A stretch of DNA of 64,000 nt from an uncultured Schlesneria sp. Its GTDB lineage: Bacteria; Planctomycetota; Planctomycetia; Planctomycetales; Planctomycetaceae. The stretch is from assembly GCA_903834925.1 (NCBI GenBank), contig CAILLA010000128.1, positions 1 through 64,000 on the forward strand, in the 5' to 3' direction. The translations under genes and the position numbers were made by a program. Shown piece after piece: positions 1 to 58,056 of this stretch. The notes below the pieces were generated by a model, which saw only the letters and a program-made list of their open reading frames with translations, was not told where the DNA came from and made no database searches. Positions within the stretch are counted from its first letter, which is position 1; every line of letters begins with the position of its first letter.

Positions 1-281
1 CCACGCTTTCGCAGACGGGGTTGGTCAACGGTGCTCCCGGTCCTGGTGGTGGTTATTGGCTCGCACGGCCTCCACAAGAAATCACCTTGAACGATGTGAT
101 CACACCGTTCGAACGCCTCGATACAACGCTGATGTGCCCCTTTGGGGAAGACTGGTGCGGCACCGGCCCACACTGCCCGCTGCACAATCAATTTGTCCAA
201 TTTCGGCAGCAGATGTCAGATTTTCTTCAAAAGACGACGCTGGCCCAATTTCAAAAAACTCCCGGGCCGAGGTTGAAGTAA
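1..281 (+). CDS. Rrf2-family transcriptional regulator, 3' end only
   Basis: The gene enters from the left edge, reads in the frame that begins at base 3, and stops with TAA at 279-281. The visible part contains GLVNGAPGPGGGYWLARPP followed by EITLNDVI, which matches the winged-helix wing and dimerisation start of Rrf2/IscR regulators. Three cysteines follow in the order C-x6-C-x5-C with a nearby His (CPFGEDWCGTGPHCPLH). IscR and NsrR hold an Fe-S cluster with a similar Cys pattern, so redox or iron-sulfur sensing is plausible but inferred. The helix-turn-helix N-terminus lies outside the window. The target genes cannot be told from here. Confidence 0.85.
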   Translation, partial: TLSQTGLVNGAPGPGGGYWLARPPQEITLNDVITPFERLDTTLMCPFGEDWCGTGPHCPLHNQFVQFRQQMSDFLQKTTLAQFQKTPGPRLK

Positions 282-327
282 GTCGAGAAAAACATCGTCA
301 CAAATTTCTGATGTCCGTTACTGGTTC

Positions 328-372
328 GACGCTAGCAGCATCGGCCACGTGGCCGACGCTGCTAGCGTCGGC
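328..372. repeat. REP-like 45-bp palindrome, copy at 328
   Basis: This near-perfect inverted repeat has arms of the type GACGCTAGCAGCRTCGGC around a CACGTGG centre. The same palindrome recurs at 1960, 2451 and several times between 55790 and 56982 around a RAYT-type transposase gene. This copy is followed by about 110 bp that are also found after the copy at 2451. Confidence 0.85.
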
Positions 373-482
373 ATAAGCCGCCAAAGCGGCGACCGAGTAT
401 TAACGGACGTGCCAAACGATCAACGTTCCCGTTTGATGCAATGTCGAGAAGACGCGAAACAGGGGCAGAGTTGAGGCGGGTT

Positions 483-838
483 CTCGGTCACCCCGATGTG
501 GTTTTGAATCGTATTTTTACGGGTCCGATCCTAGGGCGGCGGCCGCCCCAGGCTACGCTCGGCCGCCGCTCTGCGGCTTAAGATGCACACGCAGCATGCG
601 CGGCAACGATCGCTGTCTCCCACCGAATGCGGCAACCTCGAATCCTCCACCGACCTCGAATCCTCCACCGACCTCGAATCGGCCACCGACCTCGAATCGG
701 CCACCGTCCTCGAATCGGCCATCAACCGGCTAACATTCTTTAGCCGCTTCGCGGCGACCGAGTAAAGCCCGGGGCAGCTTCTGCCCCGGGTTGTGACAGA
801 CATAAATCAATCAAAAAGCCCCATTCGGGGCGACCGAG
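483..838. repeat. 300-360 bp hairpin-rich repeat element, copy 1
   Basis: The left end CTCGGTCACCCCGATG and the right end CCATTCGGGGCGACCGAG are inverted relatives of each other. Inside are two strong hairpins, one with arms CCTGGGGCGG/CCGCCCCAGG and one with arms CCCGGGGCAG/CTGCCCCGGG. Between them is a GC-rich variable core. Three more copies start at 2602, 4031 and 5127. No credible gene lies within; open frames across it come from the repeats. The rest of 282-1113 holds only the palindrome at 328 and two hairpins near 1000. Confidence 0.85.
636..725. repeat. 18-bp tandem repeat, five units, in the core of element copy 1
   Basis: Five units of the form CCTCGAATCGGCCACCGA run head to tail, with CC/GG variation at positions 10-11. 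Copy 2 of the element has only three units in the same place. The 36-bp length difference between the two copies (356 and 320 bp) equals exactly two units. Confidence 0.85.
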
Positions 839-972
839 ATTCGACGCTCACGCCGCACGATCAATATTCCCGTTCCGCTCGCAATTGACGGCTAAAAAAT
901 CGGCGAACAGGAGGCACGACAAGCCAACGACCTGCGAACGACCTGCGAACGGTGAGTGAATGACGACGAAAC

Positions 973-1018
973 ACAAGCGTCCACGGGCAACCAGTTACGG
1001 CCACCCGTGGACGCTTGT
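973..1018 (-). terminator. Strong hairpin downstream of the PEP-CTERM gene
   Basis: A perfect 15-bp stem (ACAAGCGTCCACGGG with its complement) closes a 16-nt loop. It lies about 95 bp past the stop of the minus-strand PEP-CTERM gene. There is no long T-tract, so a terminator role is possible but not shown. Confidence 0.45.
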
Positions 1019-1071
1019 TATCGAAGAATTACGTTTAGCCAGGCAATTCAGCGTCAAGCTTCGCAACGAAC

Positions 1072-1097
1072 GTAGCATGGGCTTCAGCCCGTGCTAC
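1072..1097. repeat. Small hairpin GTAGCATGGGCT..AGCCCGTGCTAC
   Basis: A 12-bp stem with one mismatch and a 2-nt loop lies directly downstream of the stop at 1114. It may be a second transcription end signal or a short dispersed repeat. Only one copy was noticed here. Confidence 0.5.
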
Positions 1098-1113
1098 TCA
1101 AACGTTCAGACGA

Positions 1114-1701
1114 TCAAGCAGCAAGCTTCGACGTGCGACGGCGGAACACGGCGTATCCCATACCCGAAACGCATGCGACGCATACCAGGGCCAAAGTGGA
1201 AGGCTCAGGGACTGCGACCGGTGCGGTTTCGGTGACCGAGACGGCATCAAGAAGCCATGCGCCAGGCGGATTCGCCATGACGAAACTTAGGTCTGTGGAC
1301 GTCGATGTCGCGGTCACGGTATAGGAGTAAGTAAAGTAGGTACTATGGGTGGTATTACTGATTGTCGCCAACAAGTTGCCCCCGAAATATACCTCAAAGG
1401 AATCATTAGAACCGCCATAAACGTCTGCTAATGCGAACGTGATCGTTTCCGACCCATTGACCGTTGTTGAAAGAGTCTGAGTAAGGATGCGCGCTTCTGA
1501 GTTGGCTAAGACCGCCACCCAACTTCCTTCATAGGGATTGATACTGGAACTATCAAGGACATTGTTTGCAGTGGCGACCCCCGACCAACCGCTGAAGTTG
1601 CCAGACTCGAAACCACCGTTCTGAACGAGGTTACTCGCCGAAGCCACGGAACCGATGCTCAACACCAGCACAGAAATTAATAACCGAATTCTCACTCTCA
1701 T
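1114..1701 (-). CDS. PEP-CTERM sorting domain protein
   Basis: This 195-aa protein starts with a signal peptide (MRVRIRLLISVLVLSIGSVA) and continues LVQNGGFESGNFSGW, typical of secreted carbohydrate-binding-like beta-sandwich proteins. The C-terminus has the tripartite PEP-CTERM signal: VPEPST, a hydrophobic helix, then RRR. Such proteins are exported and processed at the membrane by exosortase, usually with exopolysaccharide production. No exosortase gene is in the window. A purine-rich GGGGGAG lies just before the ATG. An in-frame GTG two codons later would have better spacing. The substrate or partner is unknown. Confidence 0.88.
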   Translation of the reverse strand: MRVRIRLLISVLVLSIGSVASASNLVQNGGFESGNFSGWSGVATANNVLDSSSINPYEGSWVAVLANSEARILTQTLSTTVNGSETITFALADVYGGSNDSFEVYFGGNLLATISNTTHSTYFTYSYTVTATSTSTDLSFVMANPPGAWLLDAVSVTETAPVAVPEPSTLALVCVACVSGMGYAVFRRRTSKLAA

Positions 1702-1959
1702 TCTCCCCCTGCTTGATCACTCGCGGCCAACTGCAAAATACAAATTTTGCGAAAACAAGATGGCCGCTTCGCATCCGTTGATGCTGGTAACAAGTGCAGT
1801 GTATGAGTGTAAAAAAAAATTTGTATTTTCAACCCAATGAGACCATACGTGAATATACCTAGGATACAAGAGCTTCTTGTTTGCACGCATACCAATCGTT
1901 TTAATACACACGCCTTTCGTCCAATCAGGGTTCTATTGTCCACTGCAAGTTGACGGTCC

Positions 1960-2004
1960 GACGCTATCAGCGTCGACCACGTGGCGAACGCTGATAGCGT
2001 CGGC
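1960..2004. repeat. REP-like palindrome, diverged copy at 1960
   Basis: The arms read GACGCTATCAGCGTCG and CGCTGATAGCGTCGGC, a variant of the palindrome at 328 and around 56500 (TATC in place of TAGC). Unlike the copies at 328 and 2451, it is not followed by the 300-360 bp element. The surrounding 1702-2450 holds no credible gene. Confidence 0.75.
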
Positions 2005-2265
2005 AAAAGCCTTAGAGAGACGTGAAAACGAAACTCCACCCCCTGAGCAGCTCATCGTCCAACACACGTCTGAGTTCAAAATTCTGCGGCAAATGTCGAC
2101 ACCCCAGATTTTTGCAAAGTGTTGAATAATCTATACCAGATCGCCAAGAATGAAATCGTTTAGACGATGAGGCTAGGGGACGCTGGAGACATGTTTTTTC
2201 GCGAGCGTCCTGTGGCTGCATCGATACTCTCCATTTGTTAATATTGCGTTAACATTGTGTTCCCT

Positions 2266-2291
2266 CGTTCCCAAGCTCCAGCTTGGGAACG
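2266..2291. repeat. Palindrome with CGTTCCCAAGCT arms
   Basis: A perfect 12-bp inverted repeat has a 2-nt loop. A partial relative, CAGGAACTTGGGAACG, ends near 2442, so 2266-2442 may be one small inverted-ended element. From memory, this type of palindrome is scattered in other bacterial genomes. That was not checked. Confidence 0.6.
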
Positions 2292-2450
2292 CCTGTCTTG
2301 GAAGCTCTGCTTCCCGATTGGGGCGGTCGGCAACCAATGTGACACCATCAAATGTCATCGCAACCCCGAACTGTAGGCCATTGCGCGAATCGCGAAGCGG
2401 AGCTTCGAAGAGGTTCGTTTCCAAGCAGGAACTTGGGAACGAGTAATTCC

Positions 2451-2495
2451 GATGCTAGCAGCATCGGCCACGTGGCCGATACTGCTAGCGTCGGC
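2451..2495. repeat. REP-like palindrome, copy at 2451
   Basis: This copy has the same palindrome as at 328 (GATGCTAGCAGCATCGGC arm and CACGTGG centre). It is followed by the same spacer, including GCGACCGAGTATTAACGG, and then by the 300-360 bp element. Palindrome, spacer and element thus form a duplicated unit of about 470-510 bp. Confidence 0.85.
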
Positions 2496-2601
2496 AAAAG
2501 CCGCAGCGCGGCGACCGAGTATTAACGGACGCGCCAAACGTTCAACGTTTGCGTTTGGTGCTCTATCGAGAAGACGCAAAACAGGGCCAGAGTTGCGGGT
2601 T

Positions 2602-2921
2602 CTCGGTCACCCCGATGGGGTTTGGGATCGTATTTTTACGCGTCCGATCCTGGGGCGGCGGCCGCCCCAGGCTACGCTCGGCCGCCGCTCTGCGGCTTAA
2701 GACGCACACGCCGCATGCGCGGCAACGATCGCTGTCGCCCACCGAATGCGGCAACGTCGAATCCTCCACCGACCTCGAATCGGCCATCGTCCTCGAATCG
2801 GCCACCAACCGGCTAACATTCTTTAGCCGCTTCGCGGCGACCGAGTAAAGCCCGGGGCAGCTTCTGCCCCGGGTTGTGACAGACACAAATCAAACAAAAA
2901 GCCCCATTCGGGGCGACCGAG
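2602..2921. repeat. 300-360 bp hairpin-rich repeat element, copy 2
   Basis: Ends, two strong hairpins and core layout match copy 1, with three 18-bp tandem units instead of five. Similarity to copy 3 continues past the right end (AATCACAAATCAAATTGACC near 2973 compares with the sequence near 4385), up to the stop codon of the next minus-strand gene. Confidence 0.85.
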
Positions 2922-3020
2922 ATTCGACGCTCATCAACGCCGACGACAACCACCTGTAAATCATCATCCATTAATCACAAATCAAATTGACCTAACTGTC
3001 GCTATACAACGAACATCATC

Positions 3021-3914
3021 TTACACCAAAGCTCGAATCTTCTGTAACGCGTGTCTGGCTGCGGCATCGAGATTCGCTTCACTTCCGCCACCTCGGATCG
3101 GGGAACAGATTTCATAGGCAACGTCGCCCTGAAAGCCACCCTCCTTCAAGCCACGAAAGAAGCCGTCGAGATCGAGAAATCCCTCGCCCAGAGGCACCGC
3201 TTTCACCGCTGCCGGTTCGATGGGCTGATAATTGATCAACGCGGGCCGGTATTGCCATCGCGGAAGACGGATATAATCGGCAAGCGTGGTCTGAACCATT
3301 CGCGGAGCCATCTCTTTCGCGGCCTGATACAGATCCGCACCATGCAGGGCGATCGACCACGGATCGAACATCGCCTTCGCGTTCGGGTGGTTGATGTCGT
3401 CCAGCAATTCGCCGAACGCCGCGACGTCGACACCGACATCGTGATGGTTCTGGATGCCGAGGATCAGTCCGAAGTCCGCACAGACGGCGGCACATTCGCG
3501 AAGAGCCGTCACACATTTGGTCCAGTCGGTGTGATGATCTGCAAGATCGGTGTAGTAGCCGGTGAAGACACGGATAATTCTTGCTCCCAGTGCATGACCC
3601 AGTTCCGCGAGTTGGCGAACATTCAGGATCTGCATCTCGACGAACGGAACTTCCTTCGCCTGGGACCCCGCTGTGAAATCAGTATAGCCAGCGATTGTCG
3701 CGATATGCAGATTCAACCGGTCAGCCACCGACTTAATCTCGCGGACCGATTCGCCGTTCGGATAATCCACTGGCGAAAGATGCGGGCGTTTTGCACCAAG
3801 CTCCACAGCGGGATACCCGAGTGCCGCAGCCTTTTCCAGGAATGGAATCAGGTCGAGCTTGTGCTGCCCCCAACCTCCGGCATAGCTGACCGAAAATAAT
3901 ATGGGCGTGTTCAA
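3021..3914 (-). CDS. Sugar phosphate isomerase/epimerase (xylose isomerase-like TIM barrel)
   Basis: The protein of about 297 aa reads LNTPILFSVSYAGGWGQ at its start and has the order expected of an AP-endonuclease-2/xylose-isomerase-like barrel: FLEKAAALGYPAVELG, ARIIRVFTG, GLILGIQNHHD, NAKAMFDPWSIALHG and DVAYEICSP. Conserved Glu, His and Asp residues in these strands would bind a divalent metal. A TTG start at 3914 is chosen because GGAG precedes it by about 10 bases; the frame stays open to another TTG at 3980. Planctomycetes carry many such enzymes, and the substrate cannot be read from the sequence. Repeat elements lie on both sides. Confidence 0.85.
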   Translation of the reverse strand: MNTPILFSVSYAGGWGQHKLDLIPFLEKAAALGYPAVELGAKRPHLSPVDYPNGESVREIKSVADRLNLHIATIAGYTDFTAGSQAKEVPFVEMQILNVRQLAELGHALGARIIRVFTGYYTDLADHHTDWTKCVTALRECAAVCADFGLILGIQNHHDVGVDVAAFGELLDDINHPNAKAMFDPWSIALHGADLYQAAKEMAPRMVQTTLADYIRLPRWQYRPALINYQPIEPAAVKAVPLGEGFLDLDGFFRGLKEGGFQGDVAYEICSPIRGGGSEANLDAAARHALQKIRALV

Positions 3915-5126: not shown

Positions 5127-5464
5127 CTCGGTCACCCCGATGGGGTTTGTGGTCGTATTTTTACGCGTCCGATCCTGGGGCGGAGGCCGCCCCAGGCTAC
5201 GCTCGGTCACCGCGATGCGGCTTAAGACACGCGGATCGCTATGCGTCTTGACACCTGTTGACTGCGTACACGGCAACAGTCTCTGGTGCAAAACGGCGGC
5301 AGGAACGTCGAATGCTCGAACGACCGCGATCGACCGTCGATCGGCCACCGATCGGCCACCTTTTTTTAGCCGCGTAGCGGCGACCGAGCATAGCCTGGGG
5401 CAGCTTCTGCCCCAGGTATCGTCAGACCAAAACCTGACAAAAAGCCCCATTCGGGGCGACCGAG
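5127..5464. repeat. 300-360 bp hairpin-rich repeat element, copy 4
   Basis: The inverted ends and both hairpins are present, slightly diverged (CCCCAGG in place of CCCCGGG in the right hairpin). The core shares CTCTGGTGCAAAACGGCGGC with copy 3. It lies about 225 bp upstream of the transposase start. The rest of 4902-5707 shows no gene. Confidence 0.83.
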
Positions 5465-55689: not shown

Positions 55690-55789
55690 TTTGGCCGCCA
55701 TCATCTCCAACCAGGCGAGCCCCGGATGTGAATCCAGTGATTCATAGACCGGATCATTCAACAAAAGTTGGATTCTCTTGAGGACCATT

Positions 55790-56075
55790 CCGACGCTGGC
55801 AGGGCCACGTGGGCGACGCTGCTAGCGTCGGACTTCCCGTATTGGTAGTTTAACGAACATGCCGACGCTGGCAGCGTCAGCCATGTAGCCGATCCTGACG
55901 CCATCGGAAAACACTGTTTATTACCAAGTTCGTGGTCTGGTTTTGCTGATTGCGGTCGACGCTAGCAGCGTCGGCCACGTAGCCGACGCTGCTAGCGTCG
56001 GAATTCATGGGTCTCGGACTTCAAATATTGGCATTTTGATAAAGCTTGCCGACGCTGGCAGCGTCGGCCACGGGT
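55790..56075. repeat. Cluster of REP-like palindromes upstream of the RAYT gene
   Basis: The copies are at 55790-55832 (four bases missing in the left arm), 55861-55909 (degenerate), 55957-56002 (near perfect) and a half copy at 56049-56075. The arms are GACGCTAGCAGCGTCGGC-type with centre CACGTAG or CACGTGG. Copies alternate with short unique spacers such as TTGGCATTTTGATAAAGCTT. The half copy ends just before the ATG of the transposase gene. No gene lies in 55690-56086. Confidence 0.88.
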
Positions 56076-56086
56076 CGGGGCCTGGC

Positions 56087-56863
56087 ATGTCACATCGTGA
56101 AGTCATCACGCGAGGAAGCCTTCTTCACTGGTACAGGCCGGGTAAAGTTCACTTCGTGACGTATCGTTTAGCCGGGACTTTACCTATCGAACTCATTCGT
56201 CGTTTGAGAACTGAACGAGATGAGCGACTCGCCCGGCCGACAGCACCGGGCGTGTCTTACGGTAAGGCGAAGGAAAATGCTCATAAGCAATTCTTTGCTG
56301 CCTATGACAAGTACCTTGATCAATCATTGTGCGTTCGCTGGCTGGAAGAACCTGCAGTGGCCGAGATTGTCGTTGAGAATCTGTACCATCATCACCAAGT
56401 CAAATATCAGTTGCTGGAATACGCCGTGATGCCGAATCATGTGCATGTTTTGATTTTGCCGATAGAGTCTGACGCGGGCGGTGCTGGGAACCTGACTGAC
56501 GCTAGCAGCGTCGGCCACGTAGCCGACGCTGCTAGCGTCGGAAGCACCACTGGCGAGTGCGATTCCGACTTTTTTTCGGACGAAACCACGGACTCGAAGA
56601 GTCCGCTCAGCACGATTATGCATAGCCTGAAAAGCTATACGGCGAACGAAGCGAATAAAATCCTGAAACGTGACGGCGCATTTTGGCAACGCGAATCCTA
56701 TGATCATTGGGTACGCGATGTCGCGGAACTTTCTCGGATTGCCGAGTACATCGCCCATAATCCTGTGGCTGCCAAACTCGTGAAAAATGCTTGGGATTGG
56801 CCATACTGTTCCGCCTACGACCGGAAACATCCACGAGATAAATGTTTGGCGGAATGGTGGTGA
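56087..56863 (+). CDS. REP-associated tyrosine transposase (RAYT, Y1 type)
   Basis: This 258-aa protein has the RAYT layout: HFVTYRLAGTLP, LLEYAVMPNHVHVLILP with HUH pair H118/H120, SLKSYTANEANKILKRDGAF, WQRESYDHWVR and catalytic Y221 in RIAEYIAHNPVAAKLV, with N225. A REP palindrome lies in frame inside the gene and adds DASSVGHVADAASVG (residues 138-152) between the HUH and Tyr parts. The start ATG at 56087 follows the last upstream palindrome. RAYTs are thought to move or maintain REP repeats, and here six or more palindromes surround the gene. Confidence 0.92.
   Translation: MSHREVITRGSLLHWYRPGKVHFVTYRLAGTLPIELIRRLRTERDERLARPTAPGVSYGKAKENAHKQFFAAYDKYLDQSLCVRWLEEPAVAEIVVENLYHHHQVKYQLLEYAVMPNHVHVLILPIESDAGGAGNLTDASSVGHVADAASVGSTTGECDSDFFSDETTDSKSPLSTIMHSLKSYTANEANKILKRDGAFWQRESYDHWVRDVAELSRIAEYIAHNPVAAKLVKNAWDWPYCSAYDRKHPRDKCLAEWW
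56497..56542. repeat. REP-like palindrome inside the RAYT gene
   Basis: This copy has the same near-perfect palindrome as at 55957, located within the transposase reading frame. It inserts 15 codons without changing the frame and is flanked by Gly/Asn/Thr-rich linker codons. Confidence 0.9.
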
Positions 56864-56869
56864 ATTGCA

Positions 56870-56982
56870 GTAGCCGATGCTGCCAGCGTCGGAGGTTCGT
56901 TTTTCGATTTTGTTTGCCGAATTCGTGGGTTGGTTCCGACGCTAGCAGCGTCGGCCACGTAGCCGACGCTGCCAGCATCGGA
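56870..56982. repeat. REP-like palindromes downstream of the RAYT gene
   Basis: A half copy is at 56870-56893 and a full copy at 56938-56982 (arms GACGCTAGCAGCGTCGGC and CGACGCTGCCAGCATCGG). The full copy ends 13 bp before the stop of the minus-strand ThiF-like gene. Confidence 0.88.
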
Positions 56983-56994
56983 CAAAATGCCGAC

Positions 56995-58056
56995 TCATCC
57001 CCCGACATACCTGGCATACAGTCCACGGGCAGTGCTGATGTCGTCGGTCCCTTGGATGATGGCTCGGCCGTCTCGGAAGATGGTGATTTCGTACGACGGG
57101 TCGGACAGGGTCAGGCGAACCAGGAAGGGATTGCGCGTGATTGCTCCTGATTGTTCCAGCTTTTTCGCGAGATCTTCGAGCAACAGACTTGTCGGTTGAG
57201 CCGGTGAGATCTGGACCGAATTTCTACCGCAAAGTTTCGTCGATTGTGATGCGTTGCCGCCGTGAAGCCAGTCGCGTCGGCCTTGTACGCAGGCGGGACA
57301 CTCGCTTCGCTCACGCAGGTTTGCGAGGTTCATTTGCCTGAGCGTTCCTTCCCAGACATCAACGATCGTGAGTTGAGGTAACACCAGATCTTTGCGGCCT
57401 GCCAGAATCTTGAGCGCTGTGGTCGCTTGTAACGCGGTCACCATGTGGATTGCTGGTGCAATAACGCCTGCCGTGTCGCAGGTTTCGGTGGCTCCGGGCT
57501 CGGGAGGTGTTTCGATGACGCAGCGCAGGCAGGCCGATTCGTTGGGAAAGATTGCCATCGTCTGACCGTGGCTTCCGACGCAACCTGCATAAACCCAGGG
57601 GATGCTCAAGTCTAGTGCGAGATCGTTGATCAGGAACCGAATCTCAAAGTTGTCGCTCCCATCCAGAATCAAATCGACATCCTGAGCGAATCCGCGAATG
57701 TTACGCCAGTCGATATCCGCGACATGCGGATCGAGCGTCACCTGTGAGTTGATCCGGGCCAATTTCTTCGCGGCGACAATCGATTTCGGCAGATGGTCAA
57801 CGACGTCTTGTTCATCGAACAGAACTTGACGCTGAAGATTCGTCAGGTCGACAAAATCGCGGTCGACAATTCGTAAGAAGCCGACCCCCGCGCGAACAAG
57901 CGTATCGGCGAGCACCGTTCCTAATGCCCCGCAGCCGCACAGGAGCACTCTTGAACCGCGTATCCGTTCCTGGCCTTCGGTTCCAATTCCAGGAAAACGA
58001 ATCTGACGGCTGTAACGTTCGAGAGGATTCGGTGTTTGTTGGTCTGTCGTTGTCAT
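56995..58056 (-). CDS. ThiF/MoeB-family adenylyltransferase
   Basis: This 353-aa protein is an E1-like enzyme: RYSRQIRFPGIGTEGQERI, nucleotide loop LLCGCGALGTVLADTLVRAG, RIVDRDFVDLTNLQRQVLFD, DLILDGSDNFEIRFLINDLA, the Cys in ETCDTAGVI, and zinc cysteines CLRC and CPAC. It would adenylate the C-terminus of a ThiS- or MoaD-like sulfur carrier, or another peptide. Residues after about 265 form an extra C-terminal domain, unlike the shorter MoeB/ThiF relatives. Its start codon directly abuts the stop of the upstream DTW gene (0-bp gap), so the two form an operon. No ThiS/MoaD gene is in the window. Confidence 0.9.
   Translation of the reverse strand: MTTTDQQTPNPLERYSRQIRFPGIGTEGQERIRGSRVLLCGCGALGTVLADTLVRAGVGFLRIVDRDFVDLTNLQRQVLFDEQDVVDHLPKSIVAAKKLARINSQVTLDPHVADIDWRNIRGFAQDVDLILDGSDNFEIRFLINDLALDLSIPWVYAGCVGSHGQTMAIFPNESACLRCVIETPPEPGATETCDTAGVIAPAIHMVTALQATTALKILAGRKDLVLPQLTIVDVWEGTLRQMNLANLRERSECPACVQGRRDWLHGGNASQSTKLCGRNSVQISPAQPTSLLLEDLAKKLEQSGAITRNPFLVRLTLSDPSYEITIFRDGRAIIQGTDDISTARGLYARYVGG

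Follow-up and report, generated by a model that had tools for sequence, protein, structure and literature searches.

RAYT (TnpAREP) enzymes of subclass 2.4, described by Quentin (2018, PMC6006769) and corresponding to RAYT group 4 in the grouping of Bertels 2017 cited there, carry NH[IFV]H and WQ motifs, a YIxNNP motif and a variable beta3-alphaC insertion, for which in-frame REP inserts between beta3 and alphaC have already been reported. Their REPs also flank the gene, have a GTRG foot and, in the canonical long form, three G-C pairs at the stem base; the hosts named are mainly Cyanobacteria, Bacteroidetes and various phyla. Di Nocera 2013 (PMC3733652) describes 24 families of GTAG-tagged REPs, and other bacteria are known to have orphan REPs with no RAYT (PMC3733652, PMC6006769).

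The DNA analyzed here is a stretch of 64,000 nucleotides (the window) from an uncultured Schlesneria sp.; its genome is denoted G000, and the other G and L labels denote the genomes and loci compared. In all probability the window carries a REPtron, i.e., a RAYT/TnpAREP gene closest to subclass 2.4 together with its cognate REP family, the subclass being assigned from motifs, insert and REP features. The pair is real and functional-looking, and it is an ordinary example of the known REP/RAYT kind. It shares with subclass 2.4 the two motifs (as NHVH and FWQ), the variable insertion, the REPs both flanking and in frame inside the gene, the GTRG foot and the canonical long REP with its three basal G-C pairs, but it has YIAHNP where YIxNNP is published and its host belongs to the Planctomycetota. 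With the GTAG REPs of PMC3733652, to which it is likened by general features, it has in common the GTAG/GTGG foot, an 8-bp stem with a loop of 3, inverted dimers, one-arm stem variants resembling their heterodimers, and an intergenic preference with some copies in frame in ORFs; unlike those dimers, the feet in the window abut without a spacer. The Rickettsia palindromic elements (RPE), described in the same paper, are likewise palindromic repeats kept in frame in proteins, but they are CGTC-tagged and without a known dedicated transposase. The E. coli TnpAREP (4ER8) has the same fold and HUH-Y1 core, whereas its identity to the window protein is 13%, it is without the insert, and the E. coli REP stem is bulged while that of the window is not. 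The earlier note on this DNA suggested that the pairing may be undescribed; a REP/RAYT pair is indeed present in a planctomycete, but this type of pairing has already been published, as have GTAG repeats in Planctomycetes (PMC6006769, PMC3733652). The features of the window are as follows (no strand is given for doublets).

326..371: REP doublet, intergenic; in-place match in G005, single hairpins in G001 and G002
1958..2003: REP doublet, intergenic; pattern search
2449..2494: REP doublet, intergenic; pattern search
55789..55832: REP doublet 1, left arm shortened; 97.9% identical to the sole doublet at the G005 locus
55862..55908: REP with a degenerate partner; pattern search of the window
55956..56001: REP doublet 2, feet inward; pattern search of the window
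56049..56071, minus strand: single REP with a GTGG foot, immediately 5′ of the RAYT start; pattern search
56087..56863, plus strand: RAYT/TnpAREP gene, 258 aa; NHVH at residues 117-120, FWQ (W200), YIAHNP (Y221)
56496..56541: in-frame REP doublet within the RAYT ORF, encoding DASSVGHVADAASVG, between beta3 and alphaC
56870..56892, plus strand: single REP with a GTAG foot, immediately 3′ of the RAYT stop; pattern search
56936..56981: REP doublet 3′ of the RAYT; orthologous copy in G002
56995..58056, minus strand: ThiF/MoeB-like gene (Pfam ThiF, 2e-70), outside the element; syntenic anchor for comparing the locus within the genus

Positions 55789-56982 hold ten well-matched copies or half-copies of the 19-nt hairpin CCGACGCTnnnAGCGTCGG, each beside a GTRG foot (unit starts at 55813, 55862, 55956, 55983, 56049, 56496, 56523, 56874, 56936 and 56963), plus degenerate partners. 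Four of the ten form two near-perfect foot-to-foot doublets outside the gene and two form the doublet inside the RAYT frame, one is paired with a degenerate arm, and the other three stand alone or beside a decayed partner; the three doublets near the window start add six further units. The earlier note had reported palindromic repeats on both sides of the RAYT and three distant copies. The repeats are real (32 strand-matches to the hairpin CCGACGCTRSCAGCGTCGG with up to 3 mismatches in the window, compared with 0.04 expected from shuffles), and so are the distant copies at 326-371, 1958-2003 and 2449-2494; repeats do lie on both sides of the gene, but the in-frame doublet at 56496-56541 had been missed. 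The CACGTAG and CACGTGG taken for variable centres are each a pair of feet (GTGG or GTAG, read one on each strand) that meet without a spacer as CCAC/GTRG.

These repeats had been described as a 45-bp palindrome, the anatomy of which is that of two head-on 19-nt hairpins, CCGACGCTAGCAGCGTCGG-CCAC/GTRG-CCGACGCTGCTAGCGTCGG. We analyzed covariation in 65 doublets from 4 species; the copies are related, so that the contrast, clear as it is, carries no formal probability. Within the 19-nt stems 27 compensatory cells were counted, compared with a shuffle mean of 8.9 and maximum of 16 (pair 5-15 is C-G in 41 and T-A in 13 doublets, and pair 32-42 is C-G in 46 and T-A in 10), whereas pairing of the arms of the 45-46-nt palindrome gave 8 cells against 11.3 by shuffle. 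These results support the 19-nt hairpin, and not the 45-bp palindrome, as the structural unit. That the 45-bp palindrome is itself the unit, as a MITE or an IS end rather than a pair of REPs, is highly improbable: the long fold reaches -29.6 kcal/mol and loop position 9 covaries with position 38 across the doublet, but the long pairing shows no covariation of the arms, single units and feet-outward pairs exist, and the A/T stem variant is mostly confined to one arm (it occurs in both arms together in 1 of the 65 doublets). The palindrome was rejected as the unit on the covariation evidence. Across the doublet it is the loops at positions 9 and 38 that match and not the stems, so that the partners of a doublet tend to be of one subtype. 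According to the REPIN concept of Bertels and Rainey, from 2011, a doublet reportedly replicates as a unit.

The whole-genome count that the earlier note had proposed was made by pattern search, as were the other genome-wide counts. In G000 (9.02 Mb, 307 contigs), foot plus hairpin (GTRGCCGACGCTGSYAGCGTCGG, up to 3 mismatches) gave 110 matches and a reversed-pattern control gave 0. Only 7 of 39 REP sites lie inside ORFs of at least 150 aa, compared with 54% of random positions, so the REPs avoid genes and are mainly extragenic; a large number fall between convergent genes. Both the doublets and the RAYT genes are frequently found at contig ends (L320, L340, L343, L376 and several RAYT loci), and because assemblies break at both, the repeat counts are lower bounds. 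An Rfam search returned nothing at the REPs. Active spread, which had been suggested, is unsupported, because the copy at 326-371 is common to other species.

Several other observations were made in passing. An ORF of more than 1000 aa, by its sequence an RND-type efflux transporter (L338, G000:C173:19200-22300), contains two window-family REPs in frame within one of its loops (at 1511-1589). An Acido-Lenti-1 RNA (RF01687) matches window 5368-5416 on the minus strand, with 38.8 bits and a gathering score of 37 (Rfam). Window 372-900 and 2495-2930 are near-duplicate intergenic segments rich in hairpins tagged CGACCGAG (e.g., AAAGCCCCATTCGGGGCGACCGAG), many similar copies of which are present in G001, G002 and G005, and window 2260-2443 holds a separate dispersed repeat, CGTTCCCAAGCTCCAGCTTGGGAACG, that has dozens of partial matches in G001 and in G002, where it abuts a window-family REP.

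The RAYT gene has the features of a Y1-family HUH enzyme, with the HUH motif (NHVH 117-120) and the single catalytic Tyr (Y221). Both are kept in 31 homologues, among which H120 is nearly invariant and the remaining NHVH, W200 and Y221 positions are invariant; the Y motif reads YIAHNP in G000, YIANNA in G008 and YIANNP in G002. Pfam gave a Y1_Tnp match (2.3e-6), 4ER8 was the only match in a PDB sequence search, and it was also the top fold match of the AlphaFold (AF2) model (Foldseek, E 9.3e-7). The NCBIfam model NF047646 (REP_Tyr_transpos) matched residues 170-241, downstream of the insert, with 73.2 bits, below its curated cut-off of 80; this counts as a near miss that concerns the annotation threshold and is no biological feature, the fold and PDB matches still indicating a TnpAREP. 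A PHROGs search returned a weak unknown family and nothing else. The dN/dS of the RAYT was 0.08-0.14 across comparisons (0.14 with G008 over the whole gene, 0.12 with G002 over the C-terminal half), and the gene is under purifying selection.

The in-frame REP occupies residues about 138-152, between beta3 (118-125) and alphaC (173-193), within a loop (131-167) that has a pLDDT below 50 in the AF2 model; being in frame and in a disordered loop, the doublet is probably tolerated. The G002 RAYT also has a REP doublet at this place. In the G008 orthologue the beta3-alphaC place holds about six 27-bp units in tandem, and a lone REP lies near the N-terminus. More distant homologues carry other hairpins there, namely GTAG-GGCAAGCGGCCTCGCTTGCC in three copies in L222 and GTAGAGCGAAGTGCCACTTCGCTCT in L230 and L236, with shorter signs in others.

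By analogy with the E. coli enzyme 4ER8 (PMC8266576), we infer that the window RAYT recognizes, cleaves and mobilizes these REPs. Each REP consists of a GTRG tetranucleotide and a 19-nt hairpin, and in a doublet two REPs meet at their feet; the HUH enzyme most likely recognizes the single-stranded foot plus the hairpin, would cleave at a foot-directed site and would rejoin the ssDNA elsewhere, so that the REPs would be non-autonomous substrates of the RAYT.

The 19-mer is present in 18 of the 119 relatives searched, and close relatives of the window RAYT are found in G002, G008 and G067. Among the surroundings of about 100 RAYT-like genes from 13 genomes, the hairpin lies beside the RAYT only in G000, G002 and G008, in the last of these in a different genomic setting. 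The proposal that this planctomycete has a REP family and a RAYT belonging to it is thus supported, the hairpin flanking the window RAYT and two close orthologues and none of about 100 others. The RAYTs of G067 and of five other planctomycetes, 47-51% identical to that of the window, each lie beside a different GTRG hairpin of their own (GTAG-AGCAAGCG in G067). These associations bear on the view that takes the hairpins for ordinary intergenic structures, whether bidirectional terminators or mRNA stabilisers, clustered by chance and unrelated to the RAYT, which we consider very unlikely. The many sites between convergent genes and the hairpins in relatives without the window RAYT would fit it, but the clustering of ten units within 1.2 kb at a single type of gene, the same arrangement in the different setting of G008, in-frame copies inside three orthologous RAYTs, the absence of the hairpin from about 100 other RAYT-like loci and the different GTRG hairpin beside each related RAYT all speak against it.

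Copy number behaves differently from physical association. The earlier note had taken an equal frequency of the palindrome in relatives lacking the RAYT as grounds against the pairing, and on this test the pairing as first proposed is not supported: the repeat is just as common in some relatives that are without the window RAYT (G005 60 hairpins, G010 73, G044 231). Feet-inward doublets number 33 in G005, 32 in G000, 15 in G002, 10 in G044, 9 in G001, 4 in G070, 2 in G022, 1 in G008 and at most 1 in G010. G005 and G001, with 33 and 9 doublets, are without the window RAYT, so that copy number does not track its presence. In the genus, at least 10 hairpins were found in 3 of 3 RAYT carriers and 3 of 12 non-carriers (0.044, hypergeometric by hand, ignoring phylogeny). 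Copy number is therefore weak evidence for the pairing, and the physical association is strong. The conflict is mostly resolved by the architecture of the repeats: in G044 (L175-L192) the 231 copies are paired feet-outward with CCCGTGG, in G010 (L155-L170) the 73 copies are mostly single with a GTAA foot, which indicates that the same hairpin core serves different repeat families, and G005 has one doublet left where G000 and G002 have the RAYT. No adjoining RAYT was found at the hairpin loci of G044 and G010.

It could also be that another transposase mobilizes the repeats and the window RAYT is a passenger, and the genomes examined, with about 6-20 RAYT-like matches each, and the hairpins of G005, G010 and G044 would leave room for this. 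An alternative cognate RAYT was sought in 13 genomes, but no other RAYT-like gene fetched had the hairpin within about 1.5-2 kb, and the window RAYT is under purifying selection; a passenger role thus seems remote, and a cognate pair is the preferred reading.

The fate of the RAYT in relatives was followed at the ThiF/MoeB-like gene, which is present in 15 of 15 genomes of the genus. Between G000 and G002 the dS of the RAYT (0.55) equals that of neighbouring thiF (0.57), which argues that the two were inherited together. Beside thiF, the G002 locus runs from an upstream flank through a doublet and the C-terminal RAYT half to a single REP and the last doublet. At the same locus G005 has a flank like that of G002 (234/299 aligned positions), followed by a lone doublet with 97.9% identity to window 55789-55835, and past it a flank like that after the last doublet of G002 (58/83); in G001 the REP is absent from the thiF locus. 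The simplest reading is that recombination or slippage between doublets removed half of the RAYT in G002 and all of it in G005. Alternatively, the RAYT may have been gained, by insertion of the gene into a doublet in the ancestor of G000 and G002, rather than lost in G005. Under the loss reading, doublets flanking and within the RAYT would make the gene prone to deletion, with the REPs left behind. At window 1-3600, a search for an empty/filled pair of a single REP yielded no clean empty site, because each of G001, G002 and G005 has one or more hairpins there. Tandem units of about 142 bp (TTAGGCAACTCTGGCGGAGC...) were also seen beside the thiF locus in G005 and G002 (L207:1-900 and rc(L206):100-400).

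An unexpected result was the presence of RAYTs in frame inside housekeeping proteins. The first cases came from RAYTs in long open frames, and a search of 392 Planctomycetota genomes added more; in all, at least 20 planctomycete genomes and one Verrucomicrobiia bin proved to have host proteins that contain an entire RAYT in frame, often with REP-like hairpin linkers. Complete cases by Pfam/NCBIfam are HsdR in G003 (L380:253-4236; a congener in one contig), a DUF1156 methylase in G078 (L381) and DnaE in the Verrucomicrobiia bin (L285:2130-6812); the same models identify a RAYT in PglX of G109 (L382), with PglX cut by the contig end. Family models further identify as hosts AlaRS in G164 and G184, PurH in G279 (L429), a DinG-like helicase in G255, Eco57I-type enzymes in G280, G473 and G186, and an OYE-type oxidoreductase in G374. 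Hosts named by reading the sequence alone are AlaRS in G235, ValRS in G408 and G422, PglX in G150 and G473, DUF1156 methylases in G473 and G177, and FabZ in eight genomes; one of the three DUF1156 methylase frames was read only in part. The loci are L419, L426 and L463 (alaS), L432 and L458 (valS), L395, L400, L404, L406, L435, L445, L451 and L455 (fabZ), and further L418, L420, L421, L423, L424, L425, L427, L428 and L459. The 919-aa frame that precedes a RAYT in G228 (L430) probably exists by chance and was discounted.

FabZ, AlaRS and ValRS are each occupied at one and the same site in several genomes, and the nested RAYTs lie in frame with no stop codon. In G164 and G184 (genomes about 88-90% complete) no alaS was found besides the nested one, and the AlaRS profile stops at 652 or 655 and resumes at 654; in G235 alaS is split between two frames, so that sequencing error or decay is possible there. 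At the DNA level, short hairpins form the linkers of six nested FabZ units; their orientation is opposite on the two sides, and several have a GTAG foot. The nested RAYTs of FabZ and AlaRS are interleaved on the tree, and between G235 and G357 FabZ is 97% identical (pS 0.20), whereas the nested RAYTs are 71% identical (pS 0.58) and belong to different clades, which suggests that the FabZ site has been occupied or replaced repeatedly. The open frames point to a putative fusion of host enzyme and RAYT at the protein level.

We find it reasonably likely that the REP/RAYT elements of the phylum are translatable mobile elements, in which single REPs, doublets and complete units of GTAG-type hairpin, RAYT and inverted hairpin would enter loops of host proteins in sense and in frame and would persist as nested domains in an intein-like manner without a recognized splicing domain. 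The in-frame REP of the window RAYT would be a small version of this behaviour. A partial literature search found no prior report of RAYTs nested in host proteins, and there is no formal evidence for movement of RAYT units (PMC6006769). The window pair, whose orthologues differ in REP sequence and one relative of which apparently had its RAYT deleted at its own repeats, is suited to a test of how RAYTs recognize REPs and of why REPs outlive RAYTs. If the wider reading is true, RAYT units themselves move, by an intein-like strategy without known splicing, and the RAYTs nested in sole-copy or housekeeping enzymes make the movement of domesticated RAYTs as units directly testable.
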